From assembly GCF_900113185.1 (NCBI RefSeq), contig NZ_FOZD01000001.1, positions 930,001 to 994,000 of the forward strand: a stretch of 64,000 nt of DNA, given 5' to 3'. The notes under the pieces were generated by a model. The model was not told the DNA's origin and ran no database searches. It worked only from the letters and a program-made list of their open reading frames with translations. The translations under genes were made by a program, and so were the position numbers. Below, piece by piece: positions 36,840-43,551 of this stretch. Origin of the DNA: Agromyces sp. CF514 (GTDB lineage Bacteria; Actinomycetota; Actinomycetes; Actinomycetales; Microbacteriaceae). Every line of letters starts with the position of its first letter. Positions within the stretch are counted from its first letter, which is position 1.

Positions 36840-38315
36840 ATGAGCGATGTCAAGGGCACTGCACCGAAACTGCCGAAGAACGTGAACCGGAAGGTCATCG
36901 GGCTCGCCGCGGCCGGCGCCGTCGGCGGCTTCCTCTTCGGCTTCGACTCCTCGGTGGTCAACGGCGCGGTCGACGCGATCCAGGACGAGTTCGGGCTCTC
37001 GGCGGCGGTGACCGGCTTCGCGGTCGCGAGCGCGCTGCTCGGCTGCGCGATCGGCGCCGAGGTCGCCGGGCGCCTGGCCGACCGGTTCGGCCGCATCCCG
37101 GTGATGATCATCGGCGCCGTGCTCTTCCTCGTCTCGTCGATCGGTGCGGGCTTCGCGTTCGGCGTCGTCGACCTCATCGTCTGGCGGGTGCTCGGCGGCA
37201 TGGGCATCGGCATCGCCTCGGTCGTGGCGCCGGCCTACATCGCCGAGATCTCGCCGAGTGCGATCCGCGGCAGGCTCGCCTCGCTGCAGCAGCTGGCGAT
37301 CGTCTTCGGCATCTTCGCCGCGCTGCTCTCCGACGCGCTGTTCGCGGCGGCCGCAGGCGGCGCCGACCAGCCGTTCTGGTTCGGGCTCGAGGCGTGGCGG
37401 TGGATGTTCATCGCGTGCGCGGTGCCCTCGATCGTGTACGGCACGATCGCGCTGCTGCTGCCGGAGTCACCGCGCTACCTGGTCAAGGCGGGGCGCGACA
37501 AGCAGGCTGAAGAGGTGCTCGAGCGCATCGGCAACCCCGACCCGGCGAAGGCCGTCGCCGACATCACCGGATCGCTGCACCGAGACGAGGTCGCCGAGGC
37601 GCAGGGCACGCTCCGCGGCCCGGTGCTCGGACTCAAGGGCATCGTCTGGATCGGCATCCTGCTCTCGGTGTTCCAGCAGTTCGTCGGCATCAACGTGATC
37701 TTCTACTACTCGACGACCCTCTGGAAGGCCGTCGGCTTCGACGAGTCCGACTCGTTCACGATCAGCGTGCTCACGTCGGTGACGAACATCGTGGTCACGT
37801 TCATCGCGATCGCCCTCGTCGACAAGGTCGGCCGACGCCCGCTGCTGCTCATCGGCTCGACCGGCATGGCGGTCACGCTCGCGACGATGGCGATCGCGTT
37901 CGCGAATTCGGTCACCGTCGACGGCGAGGTGAGCCTGCCGGGCGCCTGGGGTCCGATCGCGCTCGTCGCCGCGAACCTGTTCGTGGTCGCGTTCGGCTTC
38001 TCGTGGGGGCCGCTGGTGTGGGTGCTGCTCGGCGAGATCTTCCCGAACAGCATCCGCGGCCGGGCGCTCGGCCTCGCGGCCGCGGCGCAGTGGATCGCGA
38101 ACTTCCTCATCACGGTGTCGTTCCCGCCGATGTCCGAGTTCTCGCTGTTCTGGACCTACTCCATGTACGCCGCGTTCGCGGTGCTCTCGTTCATCTTCGT
38201 GCTCTGGAAGGTGCCCGAGACCAAGGGCATGGCGCTCGAGGACTCCGAGGCGGTCTTCGCGGCAGGCACGGCGAGAGACAAACGACGGCGCGCGAGTCAG
38301 ACCGCCGCAGGGTAG
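36840..38315 (+). CDS. sugar porter family MFS transporter
   Basis: A 491-residue sugar/H+ symporter with 12 helices. Hallmarks are GGFLFGFDSSVVNGA in helix 1, GRLADRFGRIPVMI between helices 2 and 3, RVLGGMGIGIASVVAPAYIA, PESPRYLVKAGR after helix 6, QQFVGINVIFYYS in helix 7, and VPETKGMALED at the end. These match the XylE/GlcP group; xylose, glucose or inositol are candidates. GGGGGAT lies before the ATG. It follows the exporter by 47 bases. Confidence 0.93.
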   Translation: MSDVKGTAPKLPKNVNRKVIGLAAAGAVGGFLFGFDSSVVNGAVDAIQDEFGLSAAVTGFAVASALLGCAIGAEVAGRLADRFGRIPVMIIGAVLFLVSSIGAGFAFGVVDLIVWRVLGGMGIGIASVVAPAYIAEISPSAIRGRLASLQQLAIVFGIFAALLSDALFAAAAGGADQPFWFGLEAWRWMFIACAVPSIVYGTIALLLPESPRYLVKAGRDKQAEEVLERIGNPDPAKAVADITGSLHRDEVAEAQGTLRGPVLGLKGIVWIGILLSVFQQFVGINVIFYYSTTLWKAVGFDESDSFTISVLTSVTNIVVTFIAIALVDKVGRRPLLLIGSTGMAVTLATMAIAFANSVTVDGEVSLPGAWGPIALVAANLFVVAFGFSWGPLVWVLLGEIFPNSIRGRALGLAAAAQWIANFLITVSFPPMSEFSLFWTYSMYAAFAVLSFIFVLWKVPETKGMALEDSEAVFAAGTARDKRRRASQTAAG

Positions 38316-38318
38316 GGT
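38313..38318 (+). promoter_or_regulatory. -10 box of the cysteine leader/cbs operon
   Basis: TAGGGT ends seven bases before the leader GTG, the same geometry as in other probable leaderless genes of this window. No clear -35 is visible. Confidence 0.6.
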
Positions 38319-38325
38319 GTCTCTC

Positions 38326-38370
38326 GTGCTGCTCACGTGTTGTTGTTGTCGTCGCTCAGACCGACCATGA
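38326..38370 (+). CDS. cysteine-rich leader peptide (attenuator)
   Basis: A 14-codon frame, fMLLTCCCCRRSDRP, holds four consecutive TGT codons (38338-38349). TGT is a rarely used Cys codon in a genome of this GC content. It lies 77 bp upstream of cystathionine beta-synthase. Poly-Cys upstream ORFs that sense charged Cys-tRNA by ribosome stalling are known in mycobacteria, and this has the same design. GTG at 38326 fits a leaderless start; an in-frame GTG at 38317 would add three residues but would overlap the -10 box. The hairpin that follows could be rearranged by a stalled ribosome. Confidence 0.7.
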   Translation: MLLTCCCCRRSDRP

Positions 38371-38376
38371 CCTTTC

Positions 38377-38412
38377 GCGCCGTGCGCCCGCCGAGCGGGC
38401 CGTGCACGGCGC
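38377..38412 (+). promoter_or_regulatory. leader hairpin between Cys peptide and cbs
   Basis: GCGCCGTGC (38377-38385) pairs with 38404-38412, and GCCCG (38386-38390) with CGGGC (38396-38400), seven bases after the leader stop codon. A ribosome stalled at the Cys codons would lie about 30 bases away from it. It could control access to the GGGGAG ribosome-binding site of cbs. Confidence 0.55.
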
Positions 38413-38447
38413 ACCACGATGACGACACCCAGGGGAGAACCCTCACC

Positions 38448-39815
38448 ATGAAGTACGCAGAATCCATCGTCGACCTCGTCGGCAACACCCCGCTCGTGAA
38501 GCTCACCCGAGTGGTCGAGGGCGTGACGCAGGCCACGGTGCTCGTGAAGCTCGAGTACCTGAACCCCGGCGGCTCCGTGAAGGACCGCATCGCGTCGCGG
38601 ATGATCGACGCGGCCGAGCGCGACGGCCTGCTGAAGCCCGGCGGCACGATCGTCGAGCCGACGTCGGGCAACACGGGCGTCGGGCTCGCGCTCGTCGCGC
38701 AGCAGCGCGGCTACCGCTGCATCTTCGTCGTGCCCGACAAGTTCGGTGAGGAGAAGCGCAACGTGCTCACGGCGTACGGCGCCGAGGTCGTCGTGACGCC
38801 GACGTCGGTCGCACCCGACGGGCCGGAGTCGTACTACAGCGTCTCCGACCGCATCGTGCGCGAGACGCCGGGCGCCTACAAGCCGAATCAGTTCGCGAAC
38901 CCGAACGGACCCCGCGCGCACTACGAGACCACGGGCCCAGAGATCTGGAACGACACCGAGGGCAAGGTCACGCACTTCGTGGCCGGCATCGGCACGGGCG
39001 GCACGATCACCGGCACCGGCCGGTACCTGCGCGAGATCTCGGGTGATCGGGTGCGCGTCATCGGCGCCGATCCCGAGGGATCGGTGTACTCGGGCGGCAC
39101 CGGTCGCCCGTACTTCGTCGAGGGCGTCGGCGAGGACATGTGGCCGGACACGTTCGACCCGGCCGTTCCCCACGAGGTGCTCGCCGTCTCCGACCGCGAC
39201 GCGTTCGAGATGACGCGGCGTCTCGCCCGCGAGGAGGGGCTGCTCGTCGGCGGCTCGAGCGGCATGGCGGTCGTGGCCGCGCTCCGTGCCGCGGAGCACG
39301 CCTCGCCCGACGACGTGTTCGTCGTGCTGCTGCCCGACGGCGGCCGCGGCTACCTCGGCAAGATCTTCAACGACAAGTGGATGCGCGCCTACGGCTTCTC
39401 GAACGCGCCAGAGGGCCACACCATCGCCGACGTGCTCGCCACGAAGGCCGACCGCACGGCCCCGCTGGTCTACGTGCACCCGAACGACAGCGTGCGCGAG
39501 GCGATCGACGTCATGGCCACCACCGGCGTCTCGCAGCTGCTCGTGCTCTCGGCCGAGCCGCCCGTCGTGCTCGGCGAGGTGAAGGGCACGATCACCGAGG
39601 ACGTGCTGCTCGACCTCGTCTTCACGGGCCAGGTCAAGCTGACCGACGAGGTCGGCGGCGTGGTCGGCGACCAGCTGCCGCTCATCGGCGTCAACGAGCC
39701 GGTCGCCGCGGCCCGGTCCGCGTTCGCCGACGCGCAGGCGATGCTCGTCACCGACGGCGGCAAGGCGCTCGGCGTCATCACGCGCACCGACCTGCTCACC
39801 TACCTCTCGGCGTAG
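38448..39815 (+). CDS. cbs: cystathionine beta-synthase
   Basis: A 455-residue PLP enzyme that joins serine and homocysteine into cystathionine, the first step of reverse transsulfuration. The PLP lysine is K45 in NPGGSVKDRI. PTSGNTGVGLALVA binds the substrate, and GIGTGGTITGTGRYL the phosphate. Two C-terminal CBS domains (about 330-455) distinguish it from plain cysteine synthase. The ATG at 38448 has GGGGAG upstream. The gene is behind the poly-Cys leader and in front of the gamma-lyase/synthase gene, so cysteine supply probably sets its expression. Confidence 0.93.
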   Translation: MKYAESIVDLVGNTPLVKLTRVVEGVTQATVLVKLEYLNPGGSVKDRIASRMIDAAERDGLLKPGGTIVEPTSGNTGVGLALVAQQRGYRCIFVVPDKFGEEKRNVLTAYGAEVVVTPTSVAPDGPESYYSVSDRIVRETPGAYKPNQFANPNGPRAHYETTGPEIWNDTEGKVTHFVAGIGTGGTITGTGRYLREISGDRVRVIGADPEGSVYSGGTGRPYFVEGVGEDMWPDTFDPAVPHEVLAVSDRDAFEMTRRLAREEGLLVGGSSGMAVVAALRAAEHASPDDVFVVLLPDGGRGYLGKIFNDKWMRAYGFSNAPEGHTIADVLATKADRTAPLVYVHPNDSVREAIDVMATTGVSQLLVLSAEPPVVLGEVKGTITEDVLLDLVFTGQVKLTDEVGGVVGDQLPLIGVNEPVAAARSAFADAQAMLVTDGGKALGVITRTDLLTYLSA

Positions 39816-39881
39816 CCGCAGGCATCCGCGGGTCCCACCGCCCGCAGCACACCCCTCAGACGTCACCAGAACCAGGAACGG

Positions 39882-41057
39882 ATGTCACGCATGAACATCT
39901 CCGATCGCGCGGGCTTCGACACGCTCGCCATCCACGCCGGCCAGGCGTTCGACCCCACGACGGGCGCGGTGATCCCGCCCGTCTACCTCACCTCGACCTA
40001 CGTGCAGGACGGCATCGGGGGCCTCCGCGAGGGCTACGAGTACTCGCGCGGCGGAAATCCGACCCGCACGGCGCTCGAGACCCAGCTCGCCGCGCTCGAG
40101 GGCGGCATCCGGGGGCTCTCGTTCGCGTCGGGCCTCGCCGCAGAGGACGCGCTGCTGCGCACGATGCTCGCGCCGGGCGACCACGTCGTGGTCGGCAACG
40201 ACGTCTACGGCGGCACGCACCGGCTGATCCGCAAGGTGCACGGCGCCTGGGGCGTGCGGCACAGCACGGTCGACCTGGGCGACCTCGACGCGGTGCGCGC
40301 CGCGATCGAACCCGGCGTCACGAAGGTGCTCTGGATCGAGACCCCCTCGAACCCGCTCATGAAGATCACCGACATCGCGGCGCTCGCGGCGCTCGGCGCC
40401 GAGTCGGGTGCGCTCGTCGTGGTCGACAACACGTTCGCGACGCCCGCGCTGCAGCAGCCGATCGCCCTCGGCGCGCACGTCGTCGTGCACTCGACGACGA
40501 AGTACCTCGGCGGCCACTCCGACGTCGTCGGCGGGGCGCTCGTGTTCGCGCCCGGTCAGGAGGAGCTCGCCGAGCAGGTCACCTTCACGCAGTTCGCGGC
40601 CGGCGCCGTCTCTGGCCCGTTCGACGCGTTCCTCACGACGCGCGGCATCAAGACCCTGGGCATCCGGATGCAGCGGCACAGCGCCACGGCGCAGCTCATC
40701 GCCGAGCGCCTCGAGTCGCACGCCGGCATCGCGCGGGTCTACTACCCGGGACTCGAGTCGCACGCGGGGCACGAGCTCGCCGCCCGCCAGATGTCGGGCT
40801 TCGGCGGCATGCTCTCGATCGAGCTCGCCGGCGGCGGTGCGGCGGCGCGCCGGTTCGCCGAGTCGACGACGCTGTTCCAGCTCGCCGAGTCGCTCGGCGG
40901 CGTCGAGTCGCTCGTGAACCACCCGTGGTCGATGACGCACGCGTCGGTGCGCGGCACCGAGGCCGAGGTCGCCGAGTCGATCGTGCGACTCTCGGTCGGC
41001 ATCGAGGATGCCGACGACCTGCTCGCCGACATCGACGCGGCGCTGGCCCGCCTCTAG
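39882..41057 (+). CDS. cystathionine gamma-synthase/gamma-lyase
   Basis: A 391-residue Cys/Met-metabolism PLP enzyme. YEYSRGGNPTRTALE contacts PLP of the neighbouring subunit, and K207 in VVHSTTKYLGGHSDVVGG is the PLP lysine. VESLVNHPWSMTHASV is the usual C-terminal region. Position after cbs favours cystathionine gamma-lyase (cystathionine to cysteine), although relatives are often annotated metB. ATG 39882 is four bases after AGGA; ATG 39891 is an alternative. The operon ends at a 15-bp hairpin. Confidence 0.9.
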   Translation: MSRMNISDRAGFDTLAIHAGQAFDPTTGAVIPPVYLTSTYVQDGIGGLREGYEYSRGGNPTRTALETQLAALEGGIRGLSFASGLAAEDALLRTMLAPGDHVVVGNDVYGGTHRLIRKVHGAWGVRHSTVDLGDLDAVRAAIEPGVTKVLWIETPSNPLMKITDIAALAALGAESGALVVVDNTFATPALQQPIALGAHVVVHSTTKYLGGHSDVVGGALVFAPGQEELAEQVTFTQFAAGAVSGPFDAFLTTRGIKTLGIRMQRHSATAQLIAERLESHAGIARVYYPGLESHAGHELAARQMSGFGGMLSIELAGGGAAARRFAESTTLFQLAESLGGVESLVNHPWSMTHASVRGTEAEVAESIVRLSVGIEDADDLLADIDAALARL

Positions 41058-41061
41058 GCCC

Positions 41062-41095
41062 TCGGATGCCGCGGGCGGCCGCCCGCGGCATCCGA
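41062..41095. terminator. GGATGCC hairpin after cysteine operon
   Basis: A 15-bp perfect stem (41062-41076 with 41081-41095) with loop GGCC lies five bases after the stop codon. Confidence 0.75.
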
Positions 41096-41205
41096 TCGAC
41101 CGCTCCTAGGGGCCCATCTCGGGGTACACGGCGACCTCGGGATCACGCGGTGGGAGAATGGGAGCAGGCGCGGCACGTCACCGACGCCTCAGGAGATGAA
41201 CTCCC

Positions 41206-41994
41206 ATGGTTGCTCTCATCGTCGCCCTGGTCATCCTCGCCGTCGCGATCGTCCTCTTCTTCATGTCGGTCAAGATCGTGAAGCAGTACGAGCGAGGGGT
41301 CGTGCTGCGCTTCGGCCGGCTCCAGAGCGTGCGCGAGCCGGGCATCCGGTTCATCATCCCGATCGTCGACGTGATGACCAAGGTGTCGCTGCGCATCGTG
41401 ACGCTCCCGATCCAGTCGCAGGGCATCATCACGAAGGACAACGTCACCGTGGGGGTGTCGGCCGTGTCGTACTACCGGGTGGCGGACCCCGTGAAGTCGG
41501 TGATCGCGATCGAGAGCGTGAACTCCGCGATCGAGCAGATCGCCCAGACCACGCTGCGTCGGGTGGTCGGACAGCACCACCTCGACGAGACCCTCGCCGA
41601 CACTGCTGCGCTCAACGCGAACATTCGCGAGATCCTCGATGTCACGACGCTCGACTGGGGCGTCGAGGTCACCCTCGTCGAGCTGAAGGACATCCTGCTG
41701 CCCGACTCGATGAAGCGTGCCATGGCGAAGCAGGCCGAGGCCGAGCGCGAGAAGCGGGCGAAGATCATCGCCGCCGAGGGCGAGTCGCTCGCGGCGGTGC
41801 AGCTCGGCGTCGCGAGCGACACGATGATGTCGCATCCGCTCGCCCTCCAGCTGCGCACCCTCCAGACGCTCGTCGAGGTCGGAGTCGACAAGAACACGCT
41901 CGTGGTGTTCCCGGCGCCGCTCATGAGCTCGATCGGCGAGCTCACGAACTTCATCGACCGGGAGTCCGCGGTCGCGCAGGTTCGGGGCGCGTAG
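41206..41994 (+). CDS. slipin/stomatin-like SPFH protein
   Basis: A 262-residue membrane-bound SPFH protein. One N-terminal helix (ALIVALVILAVAIVLFFMSV) is followed by the SPFH domain: VKQYERGVVLRFGRLQSVRE, GIRFIIPIVDVMTKVSLRI, NVTVGVSAVSYYRVADP. The coiled C-terminal part has KRAMAKQAEAEREKRAKIIA. Such proteins form oligomeric membrane scaffolds, often with an NfeD partner, which is missing here. AGGAG lies ten bases before the ATG, and GAGAAT at about 41152-41157 may be the -10 box. Confidence 0.92.
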   Translation: MVALIVALVILAVAIVLFFMSVKIVKQYERGVVLRFGRLQSVREPGIRFIIPIVDVMTKVSLRIVTLPIQSQGIITKDNVTVGVSAVSYYRVADPVKSVIAIESVNSAIEQIAQTTLRRVVGQHHLDETLADTAALNANIREILDVTTLDWGVEVTLVELKDILLPDSMKRAMAKQAEAEREKRAKIIAAEGESLAAVQLGVASDTMMSHPLALQLRTLQTLVEVGVDKNTLVVFPAPLMSSIGELTNFIDRESAVAQVRGA

Positions 41995-42069
41995 GCATTG
42001 GCACGAAATCGATGATGTGTGTCATTCCTGCCAGCCGCGCGCGCCGGAGGGATGCTCCAGAATGAGCGG

Positions 42070-43551
42070 GTGACTTCGAACCAGACCACCGTGGCGACCA
42101 GCGCCGCGCCCGCCGCGGGTGCGGCCGACCACCCCGCGACGGGCGAGGGCACCCCTCACCACGGCAGCCTCGGCCTCGTGCAGGGCACCGCCCTCTACAT
42201 CGCGAGCGTGCTCGGAACGGGCATCCTCGTGCTGCCCGGACTCGCCGCAGCCGCCGCAGGCCCGGCGTCGATCGTCGCGGTGGCGGTCGTGCTCGTGCTC
42301 TCGATCCCGCTCGCCGGCACGTTCGCCGCCCTCGCGTCGCGGTACCCCGACGCAGGCGGCGTCGCGAGCTACGTGCGCCGCGCCCTCGGCGACACGGCCG
42401 CGCGCATGGCCGGCTACTGGTTCTACTTCGGCGTCTGCATCGGCGCCCCCGTGCTCGCGGTGCTCGGCGGCGAGTACGTCGTCGCCGTGCTCGGCATCGA
42501 CCGGTCGGCCGTGCCGATCATCGGATTCGCCGTCTTCGTGCCGCCGTTCATCGTCAACTGGTTCGGCGTGCGCGTCGCCGGATGGGTGCAGTTCGTGCTC
42601 ACGGGCCTGCTCATCGCGGTCGTCGTCGGCGTGGTCGCCGTGACCTTCCCGGCCGCCGAAGCGTCGAACTTCACGCCGTTCCTCCCCAACGGCTGGGGCG
42701 GCGTGGGCGTCGCCATCAGCCTGTTCGTCTGGGCGTTCGCCGGCTGGGAGGTCGGCACCCACATCGCCGGGGAGTTCAGGAACCCGCGCAAGATCATCCC
42801 GCTCGCGACCGGCATCGCCGTCGTCGTGGTCGGCGCCGGCTACCTCGCCCTGCAGTTCGTCACCGTGGCCGTGCTCGGCGACCGCGCGGGCGACGGCCAG
42901 GTGCCGTTGCTCGACCTCGTCGAGACGACCGCGCCCGGCATCGGCCCCGTGCTCGTGGCGATCGTCGCCGCGATCGTCACCCTCGGCGTCATGAACGCCT
43001 ACCTGCCCGCCTTCGGCAAGCTCGGCGCGGCACTCGGCCGCGACGGCGACCTGCCGAGGTTCTTCGCCAAGGGCGCCGCCGACGGGCAGGTGCCGCGTCG
43101 CTCGCTCGCCCTCACCGGCGTCATCATCATCGTGTACTTCGGCCTCATGCTGCTGAACGACCTCGACCTGACGGGGTTCATCCTCATCCACACGAGCAAC
43201 ATGGTCGCGATCTACGCCGCGGGCATGCTCGCCGCGACCCTGCTGCTGAAGCGCTGGTCGTTCGGCTGGTGGCTCGCCGTCGTCGCGACGATCATGACCG
43301 CGGGATTGCTCGTGCTGGCCTGGCAGAACCTCCTCGTGCCGGCCGTGCTCGCGCTCGCCGCGGTCGTCGTGACGATCGTGCGGCGCGTGCGCGGCCGACG
43401 GCAGGCCACGGGCGCTGCGCCCTCCGACGAGCGAGCGGATGCCGCGGGCGACCCGCGCCCGCCCGAGGCGCCGGTGCTCGTGCCCGCCGCGCCGGCCGCG
43501 GCATCCGTCGTCCCGTCCATCACCCACGACGACCCGAAGGACTCCGAGTGA
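42070..43551 (+). CDS. APC-family amino acid permease
   Basis: A 493-residue amino acid-polyamine-organocation transporter with about 12 helices. Helix 1 carries ALYIASVLGTGILVLPGLAA, with the G-x-G break that binds the substrate backbone; WAFAGWEVGTHIAGEFRNPR is the helix 6 region. The last 70 residues are a disordered Ala/Pro tail. GTG 42070 is chosen because CAGAAT ends six bases upstream; an ATG at 42019 would give a longer, improbable N-terminus. The cyclase gene starts inside its stop codon (GTGA), so substrate and enzyme may be linked. Confidence 0.88.
   Translation: MTSNQTTVATSAAPAAGAADHPATGEGTPHHGSLGLVQGTALYIASVLGTGILVLPGLAAAAAGPASIVAVAVVLVLSIPLAGTFAALASRYPDAGGVASYVRRALGDTAARMAGYWFYFGVCIGAPVLAVLGGEYVVAVLGIDRSAVPIIGFAVFVPPFIVNWFGVRVAGWVQFVLTGLLIAVVVGVVAVTFPAAEASNFTPFLPNGWGGVGVAISLFVWAFAGWEVGTHIAGEFRNPRKIIPLATGIAVVVVGAGYLALQFVTVAVLGDRAGDGQVPLLDLVETTAPGIGPVLVAIVAAIVTLGVMNAYLPAFGKLGAALGRDGDLPRFFAKGAADGQVPRRSLALTGVIIIVYFGLMLLNDLDLTGFILIHTSNMVAIYAAGMLAATLLLKRWSFGWWLAVVATIMTAGLLVLAWQNLLVPAVLALAAVVVTIVRRVRGRRQATGAAPSDERADAAGDPRPPEAPVLVPAAPAAASVVPSITHDDPKDSE

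Follow-up and report, generated by a model that had tools for sequence, protein, structure and literature searches.

What is a 14-codon reading frame with four consecutive cysteine codons doing immediately upstream of a gene for cystathionine beta-synthase? Such a frame lies in the window (the whole 64-kb stretch of Agromyces DNA that was analysed), and an earlier note had read it as a leader peptide that senses cysteine on behalf of the gene behind it. The identity of that gene, cbs, which we propose to be the controlled gene, is secure: 38448-39815 (+ strand) matches TIGR01137 with 574 bits against a cut-off of 510. Behind it on the same strand lies a cystathionine gamma-synthase-type gene (39882-41057, +; NF005871, 615 bits against a cut-off of 513), which is the probable second gene of a cbs operon; 65 of 80 loci have a homologue on the same strand that lies no more than 600 nt beyond cbs. 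The same note took the target to be the reverse transsulfuration branch, and this stands for Cbs itself, whereas the second gene, to which NCBIfam gives the name cystathionine gamma-synthase, may work in either direction. The upstream neighbour of the leader is a sugar-porter gene (36840-38315; TIGR00879, above cut-off).

That a Cys-codon leader frame precedes cbs is confirmed. Read from the sequence, a -10-like box, TAGGGT, occupies 38313-38318 (+), its TAG doubling as the stop codon of the sugar-porter gene. Seven nucleotides 3' of the box, and 122 nt 5' of the cbs ATG, a GTG at 38326 opens a predicted leaderless upstream ORF (uORF; 38326-38370, +; recognised from the sequence and by comparison of orthologues) that encodes MLLTCCCCRRSDRP in 14 sense codons and ends with the TGA at 38368-38370. 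The four cysteine codons, TGT TGT TGT TGT, stand at 38338-38349 (+) and are both the proposed stall site and the proposed 5' arm of a sequestering helix. The frame thus lies between box and cbs just where the earlier note had put it, with all four cysteine codons ending in T. The two-tier hairpin said to follow the frame was likewise recovered, as a two-part hairpin at 38377-38412 (+) between the uORF and the ribosome-binding site (RBS), in both the minimum free energy (MFE) and the centroid fold. Beyond it, ACGATGACGACAC (38416-38428, +), identified by folding as the 3' arm for 38337-38349, adjoins on its 5' side the Shine-Dalgarno-like AGGGGAG of cbs (38431-38437, +; from sequence and folds), which is partly inside a small local hairpin that pairs 38431-38434 with 38440-38443. 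No sigma-70-type promoter match was found within 38200-38600. For the uORF, both the start of transcription and leaderless initiation are predictions, the mRNA being placed to begin at the GTG because of the spacing from the TANNNT box.

The earlier note would have counted its reading as refuted if close relatives did not keep the Cys run, and the run proved to be conserved. A close Cbs match is present in 59 of 60 Agromyces genomes, the remaining one (G017) having weaker relatives only. Counting only leaderless-type uORFs that hold two or more Cys codons, 55 of these 59 orthologues have one before cbs, its GTG or ATG standing 6-7 nt 3' of a TANNNT box, with predicted 5' ends. Two others (L142 and L149) have, by eye, a uORF with a single Cys codon. 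The last two (L107 and L145) lack the uORF and carry instead a TAGGCT box close before the cbs RBS; judged from their sequences, they are apparent natural losses of the proposed sensor. The peptides of the genus vary, as in MILSLCCR, MNSSLLCCRR, MSFSPRCCRR, MLLRAACCRH and MLLTCCCCRRSDRP, each followed by a stop codon. Cys-Cys-Arg is retained in nearly all of them (the exception being MTVRLGCRCRS, again followed by a stop codon, in L108). Over the leaders compared, the number and spacing of cysteines differ (CC, CCC, CCCC, CRCC, CPCC) and the N-terminal residues drift. The same pattern of Cys codons kept and other residues drifting is seen in those sampled cbs leaders of other Microbacteriaceae that carry a uORF.

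Chance is a poor explanation of such a run, as the earlier note had argued. Within the window, whose GC content is 70% over 64 kb, TGTx4 is found a single time. A strict scan of both strands at 80 related loci (TANNNT, 6-7 nt, ATG or GTG, 7-16 aa including CC) had no match in 984,334 background bases (both strands), compared with 20 of the 80 cbs leaders, and when applied to the window it returned the cbs uORF as its only match. Codon choice is also distinctive: 38 distinct uORFs of the genus contain 85 TGT and 6 TGC codons, against 10 TGT and 151 TGC in cbs itself at all 80 loci together and 0 TGT and 4 TGC in six genes of the window. Among catalogued families, no Rfam model covers 38313-38447 (five weak matches in 37800-42300 all fall below the gathering score) and no NCBIfam model matches the leader peptide.

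How far does the leader extend beyond Agromyces? Of 299 Microbacteriaceae genomes searched, 298 had a match, with roughly half of the best places among the matches listed. Sixty cbs leaders from 37 genera were sampled, unevenly and with best matches favoured, and 30 of the 60 showed a Cys uORF under relaxed scan criteria. Once three leaders with an unconfirmed cbs start had been left out, 57 remained (35 genera), of which 29 (in 12 of the 35 genera) carry a strict uORF and 28 do not. The two sets differ in the start of cbs itself: a TANNNT box 5-8 nt before cbs, giving the gene a leaderless look, is found in 15 of the 28 leaders without a uORF but in 0 of the 29 with one (Fisher p 1.7e-6, uncorrected for relatedness); 13 of the 57 have neither feature. 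Conservation in Agromyces and in these 12 genera supports the reading of the Cys leader as a cysteine sensor for cbs. Further out, in other families of the order, such a uORF precedes cbs at 2 of the 25 loci that match best, both from one genus. These loci (L264 and L265, family f12) encode MVLC(I/T)RLCCC, followed by a stop codon, before cbs, with the ATG 6 nt past a -10-like box, and possibly represent an independent polycysteine leader outside the Microbacteriaceae, to judge by sequence. At a set of 38 loci (L043-L080), mostly from other families and including the Leifsonia locus L050, no CC-containing short ORF was found behind a -10-like box.

What, then, would the leader do? We consider it probable, from sequence and modelled folds, that the leaderless uORF senses cysteine and attenuates translation of cbs and, probably, that of the gene which follows. 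The mRNA would begin at the uORF GTG, so that this is where a ribosome would first engage the transcript. With charged Cys-tRNA plentiful, the ribosome would pass the TGT run and depart, and the cleared run, as modelled, would pair with the stretch at the cbs RBS and keep initiation low. With charged Cys-tRNA scarce, the ribosome would stall on the TGT codons and block the helix, cbs would be translated and its product would make cystathionine for cysteine supply. The classical arrangement of terminator and antiterminator was considered and rejected, a consensus scan of 38200-38600 giving 0 intrinsic terminator sites. As no intrinsic terminator was found, translation attenuation is the preferred reading and Rho-dependent control its main rival.

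The window leader gives evidence for a helix at the RBS. Folded alone, 38326-38470 has an MFE of -56.9 kcal/mol (z -2.11, 3 of 200 shuffles being equally good), and in this structure the TGT run with the G before it (38337-38349) forms a 13-pair helix, including some G-U pairs, with 38416-38428; the 12 Cys nucleotides pair with positions -33 to -17 relative to cbs with a summed probability of 9.97 of 12. When a stall is modelled by masking the transcript from its 5' end up to and including the Cys codons, opening -20 to +13 costs 7.1 instead of 12.8 kcal/mol; with 25 rather than 16 nt of cbs included, it costs 8.1-8.6 instead of 12.7 kcal/mol, so that relief is 4.1-5.8 kcal/mol overall. Shuffling the letters of the uORF gives a mean relief of 0.9 over this region, with 0 of 15 shuffles reaching the observed value. 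A ribosome modelled at the stop codon gives none (12.7 kcal/mol); the extra RRSDRP of the window clade shifts the stop codon and, in the model, would make a terminating ribosome unlike a stalled one.

The region -20 to +13 was, however, picked after -16 to +2 had been tested, and over this narrower region of the window leader relief is only 1.8 kcal/mol and the native uORF closes the RBS no further than shuffled ones do (8.9 versus 8.7; 10 of 30 reach it). The Shine-Dalgarno core lies in its local hairpin with or without the stalled ribosome (7.0 versus 7.2), and pairing of a 13-nt fragment of the Cys run with -35 to +2 was equalled by 58 of 300 shuffles. RNAalifold, applied to the six leaders of the window clade, assigns some of the Cys run to a local helix and not to the RBS helix; the consensus of the two-part hairpin (6 sequences) has two pairs with changes on both sides and other pairs that are broken in two of the sequences. 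The suggestion of the earlier note that the leader might control the cbs RBS is therefore supported in part: by the helix of the window MFE and by the modelled freeing of -20 to +13, but not by the narrower region or by the six-leader consensus fold.

Other clades differ among themselves. Twenty leaders make up a second Agromyces group, whose helix forms elsewhere, mostly across the spacer and start codon. Stall relief here exceeds the shuffle mean in every leader (20/20), and cognate pairing with -20 to +3 beats swapped pairing (1 of 5000 permutations). Corresponding counts for the remaining groups are 4/4, 4/6 (the window clade), 3/4 and 8/18 (the MILSLCCR-type group), so that 39 of the 52 leaders exceed it (the means being 5.9 and 3.1), with negative relief in L091 and L097, both of the window clade, L143 and L169. 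Seven-of-seven pairing within -14 to +3 is found in 14 of 52 distinct leaders against 472 of 2652 swapped combinations (17.8%), compared with 4 of 52 leaders in a control segment; amongst the 14 leaders, chosen for this RBS-spacer pairing, one position appears as T-G, T-A, C-G and G-C. In the permutation test across all 52 leaders the RBS scores 162 of 5000 and a control segment at -60 to -39 scores 5 of 5000; in the 20-leader group that segment scores 9 of 5000 and a segment at +3 to +19 scores 4889 of 5000. That the control segment scores 5 and 9 of 5000 indicates that relatedness inflates the test. A wide-window duplex swap test gave no clear signal (class A 218, B 1172 and C 989 of 2000). 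RNAalifold did not find the RBS helix in 24 other aligned leaders, perhaps because MAFFT misaligns the RBS spacer, and in the MILSLCCR-type group 10 of 18 leaders fall below the shuffle mean relief and cognate pairing has no advantage (3222 of 5000). RBS pairing by the Cys run thus appears, from modelling, to be supported in some clades and to lack support in others.

The main rival is attenuation at the level of transcription, in which translation of the uORF prevents or allows Rho-dependent termination and so sets how much mRNA reaches cbs. Rho-dependent termination has been proposed for Cys leaders, that of Bifidobacterium longum cbs included (Seliverstov 2005, PMC1262725), and both the MILSLCCR-type group, with no clear RBS helix, and the window helix, which the -16 to +2 test and the six-leader consensus fold leave unsupported, would fit it. 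Stall-sensitive pairing near the RBS in the window leader and the 20-leader group argues the other way, as does the result of the consensus scan for intrinsic terminators within 38200-38600, and we regard this alternative as unlikely, albeit one to be taken seriously. Far less probable is that the peptide, whether nascent or released, lets the Cys run report thiol or redox state rather than Cys-tRNA supply. Redox is named as a possibility for mycobacterial uORFs (Shell 2015, PMC4633059) and the recurrent Cys-Cys-Arg ending could mean that the peptide itself matters, but the number and spacing of the cysteines vary, the N-terminal residues drift and the preference for TGT over TGC points to the codon or RNA level. 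A reading without a uORF would make the run either a chance repeat or part of Cbs itself, extended in frame at its N-terminus (from 38337, where there is a GTG, the cbs frame stays open and reads TTG Leu codons). This is scarcely credible, since the uORF start and the cbs ATG are 122, 123, 121 and 123 nt apart in the four leaders closest to each other, not in multiples of three, whilst the Cys frame is kept, and the strict-scan background is 0 in 984 kb.

Translation attenuation through cysteine codons would not be without precedent. To our knowledge, cysteine-sensing leaderless uORFs have so far been tested in mycobacteria only. There, in the work of Canestrari and colleagues from 2020, the Cys tract is said to mask the downstream RBS by pairing, a stalled ribosome reportedly freeing it. 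The Agromyces leader resembles these polycysteine ORFs in its predicted leaderless start, its contiguous Cys codons and its position before a gene of cysteine metabolism, and its Cys tract, too, may pair close to the RBS behind it. It differs in lineage (Microbacteriaceae) and target (cbs), and for Agromyces the cysteine response is a prediction.

Excerpts of the literature on Mycobacterium smegmatis describe cysteine-responsive attenuation by polycysteine leaderless ORFs (PMC9031893, PMC9094748 and PMC13236596, citing Canestrari 2020), and the earlier note mentions mycobacterial Cys-rich uORFs that attenuate sulphur genes. Cys leaders have also been predicted for cys operons in Mycobacterium and in Propionibacterium acnes, as well as for B. 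longum cbs. In this last case, too, an actinobacterial cbs is preceded by a short ORF whose Cys run comes close to the stop codon; the likeness is one of description, and for that leader no attenuator hairpin was found and Rho is suggested (PMC1262725). Conserved Cys-rich uORFs with ribosome occupancy, for example before cysA2, are reported from mycobacteria (Shell 2015, PMC4633059); they too have a cluster of cysteines at the C-terminus, but their targets are cysA2 and others rather than cbs, and there the ribosome occupancy was measured. The excerpted reannotation of Streptomyces lividans gives eight leader peptides, none of them there termed cysteine-dependent. Among the matches listed from the open-licence literature, we met no paper on such a uORF in the Microbacteriaceae.

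Unlike the mycobacterial polycysteine ORFs, the Agromyces leader occupies a single site among the places checked in its genome. Of 47 TGTTGTCGNCG sites in the host genome, the one at cbs alone falls within a short ORF that follows a -10-like box, and no Cys uORF was seen at two further loci, a sulfite reductase/PF01507 cluster and a cysteine-synthase-like gene, nor in 8 of 11 PF01053 matches (sulfite reductase and cysteine-synthase-like being our own reading of these genes, PF01507 a family match; the search took in TGT-coded runs at these places). Most likely the sequences provide a further and well-supported example, at cbs of Agromyces and many other Microbacteriaceae, of a cysteine-gauge leader already known from mycobacteria. 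A bolder picture, which we offer tentatively and consider rather doubtful as a whole, would make the Microbacteriaceae polycysteine sensor a single-gene device on cbs, with lineages carrying either the sensor or a leaderless cbs, and with the sequestering helix re-wired between clades (5' of the Shine-Dalgarno, or over spacer and start codon) around fixed Cys codons, TGT serving as sensor and pairing arm alike. The apparent exclusion of uORF and leaderless cbs and the apparently clade-dependent register of the helix are descriptions that we did not meet in the literature searched.

If correct, translation attenuation by the leader would extend cysteine-sensing leaderless uORFs to a large environmental family and place cbs, and with it transsulfuration, under their control. 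Dozens of natural variants, amongst them the four Agromyces in which the uORF is lost or retains one Cys codon, make the minimum number of cysteines testable. One further cbs leader, the 151-nt L103, contains three near-repeats of TTGTCGCTGACGCGAC, the first of which starts within the uORF.
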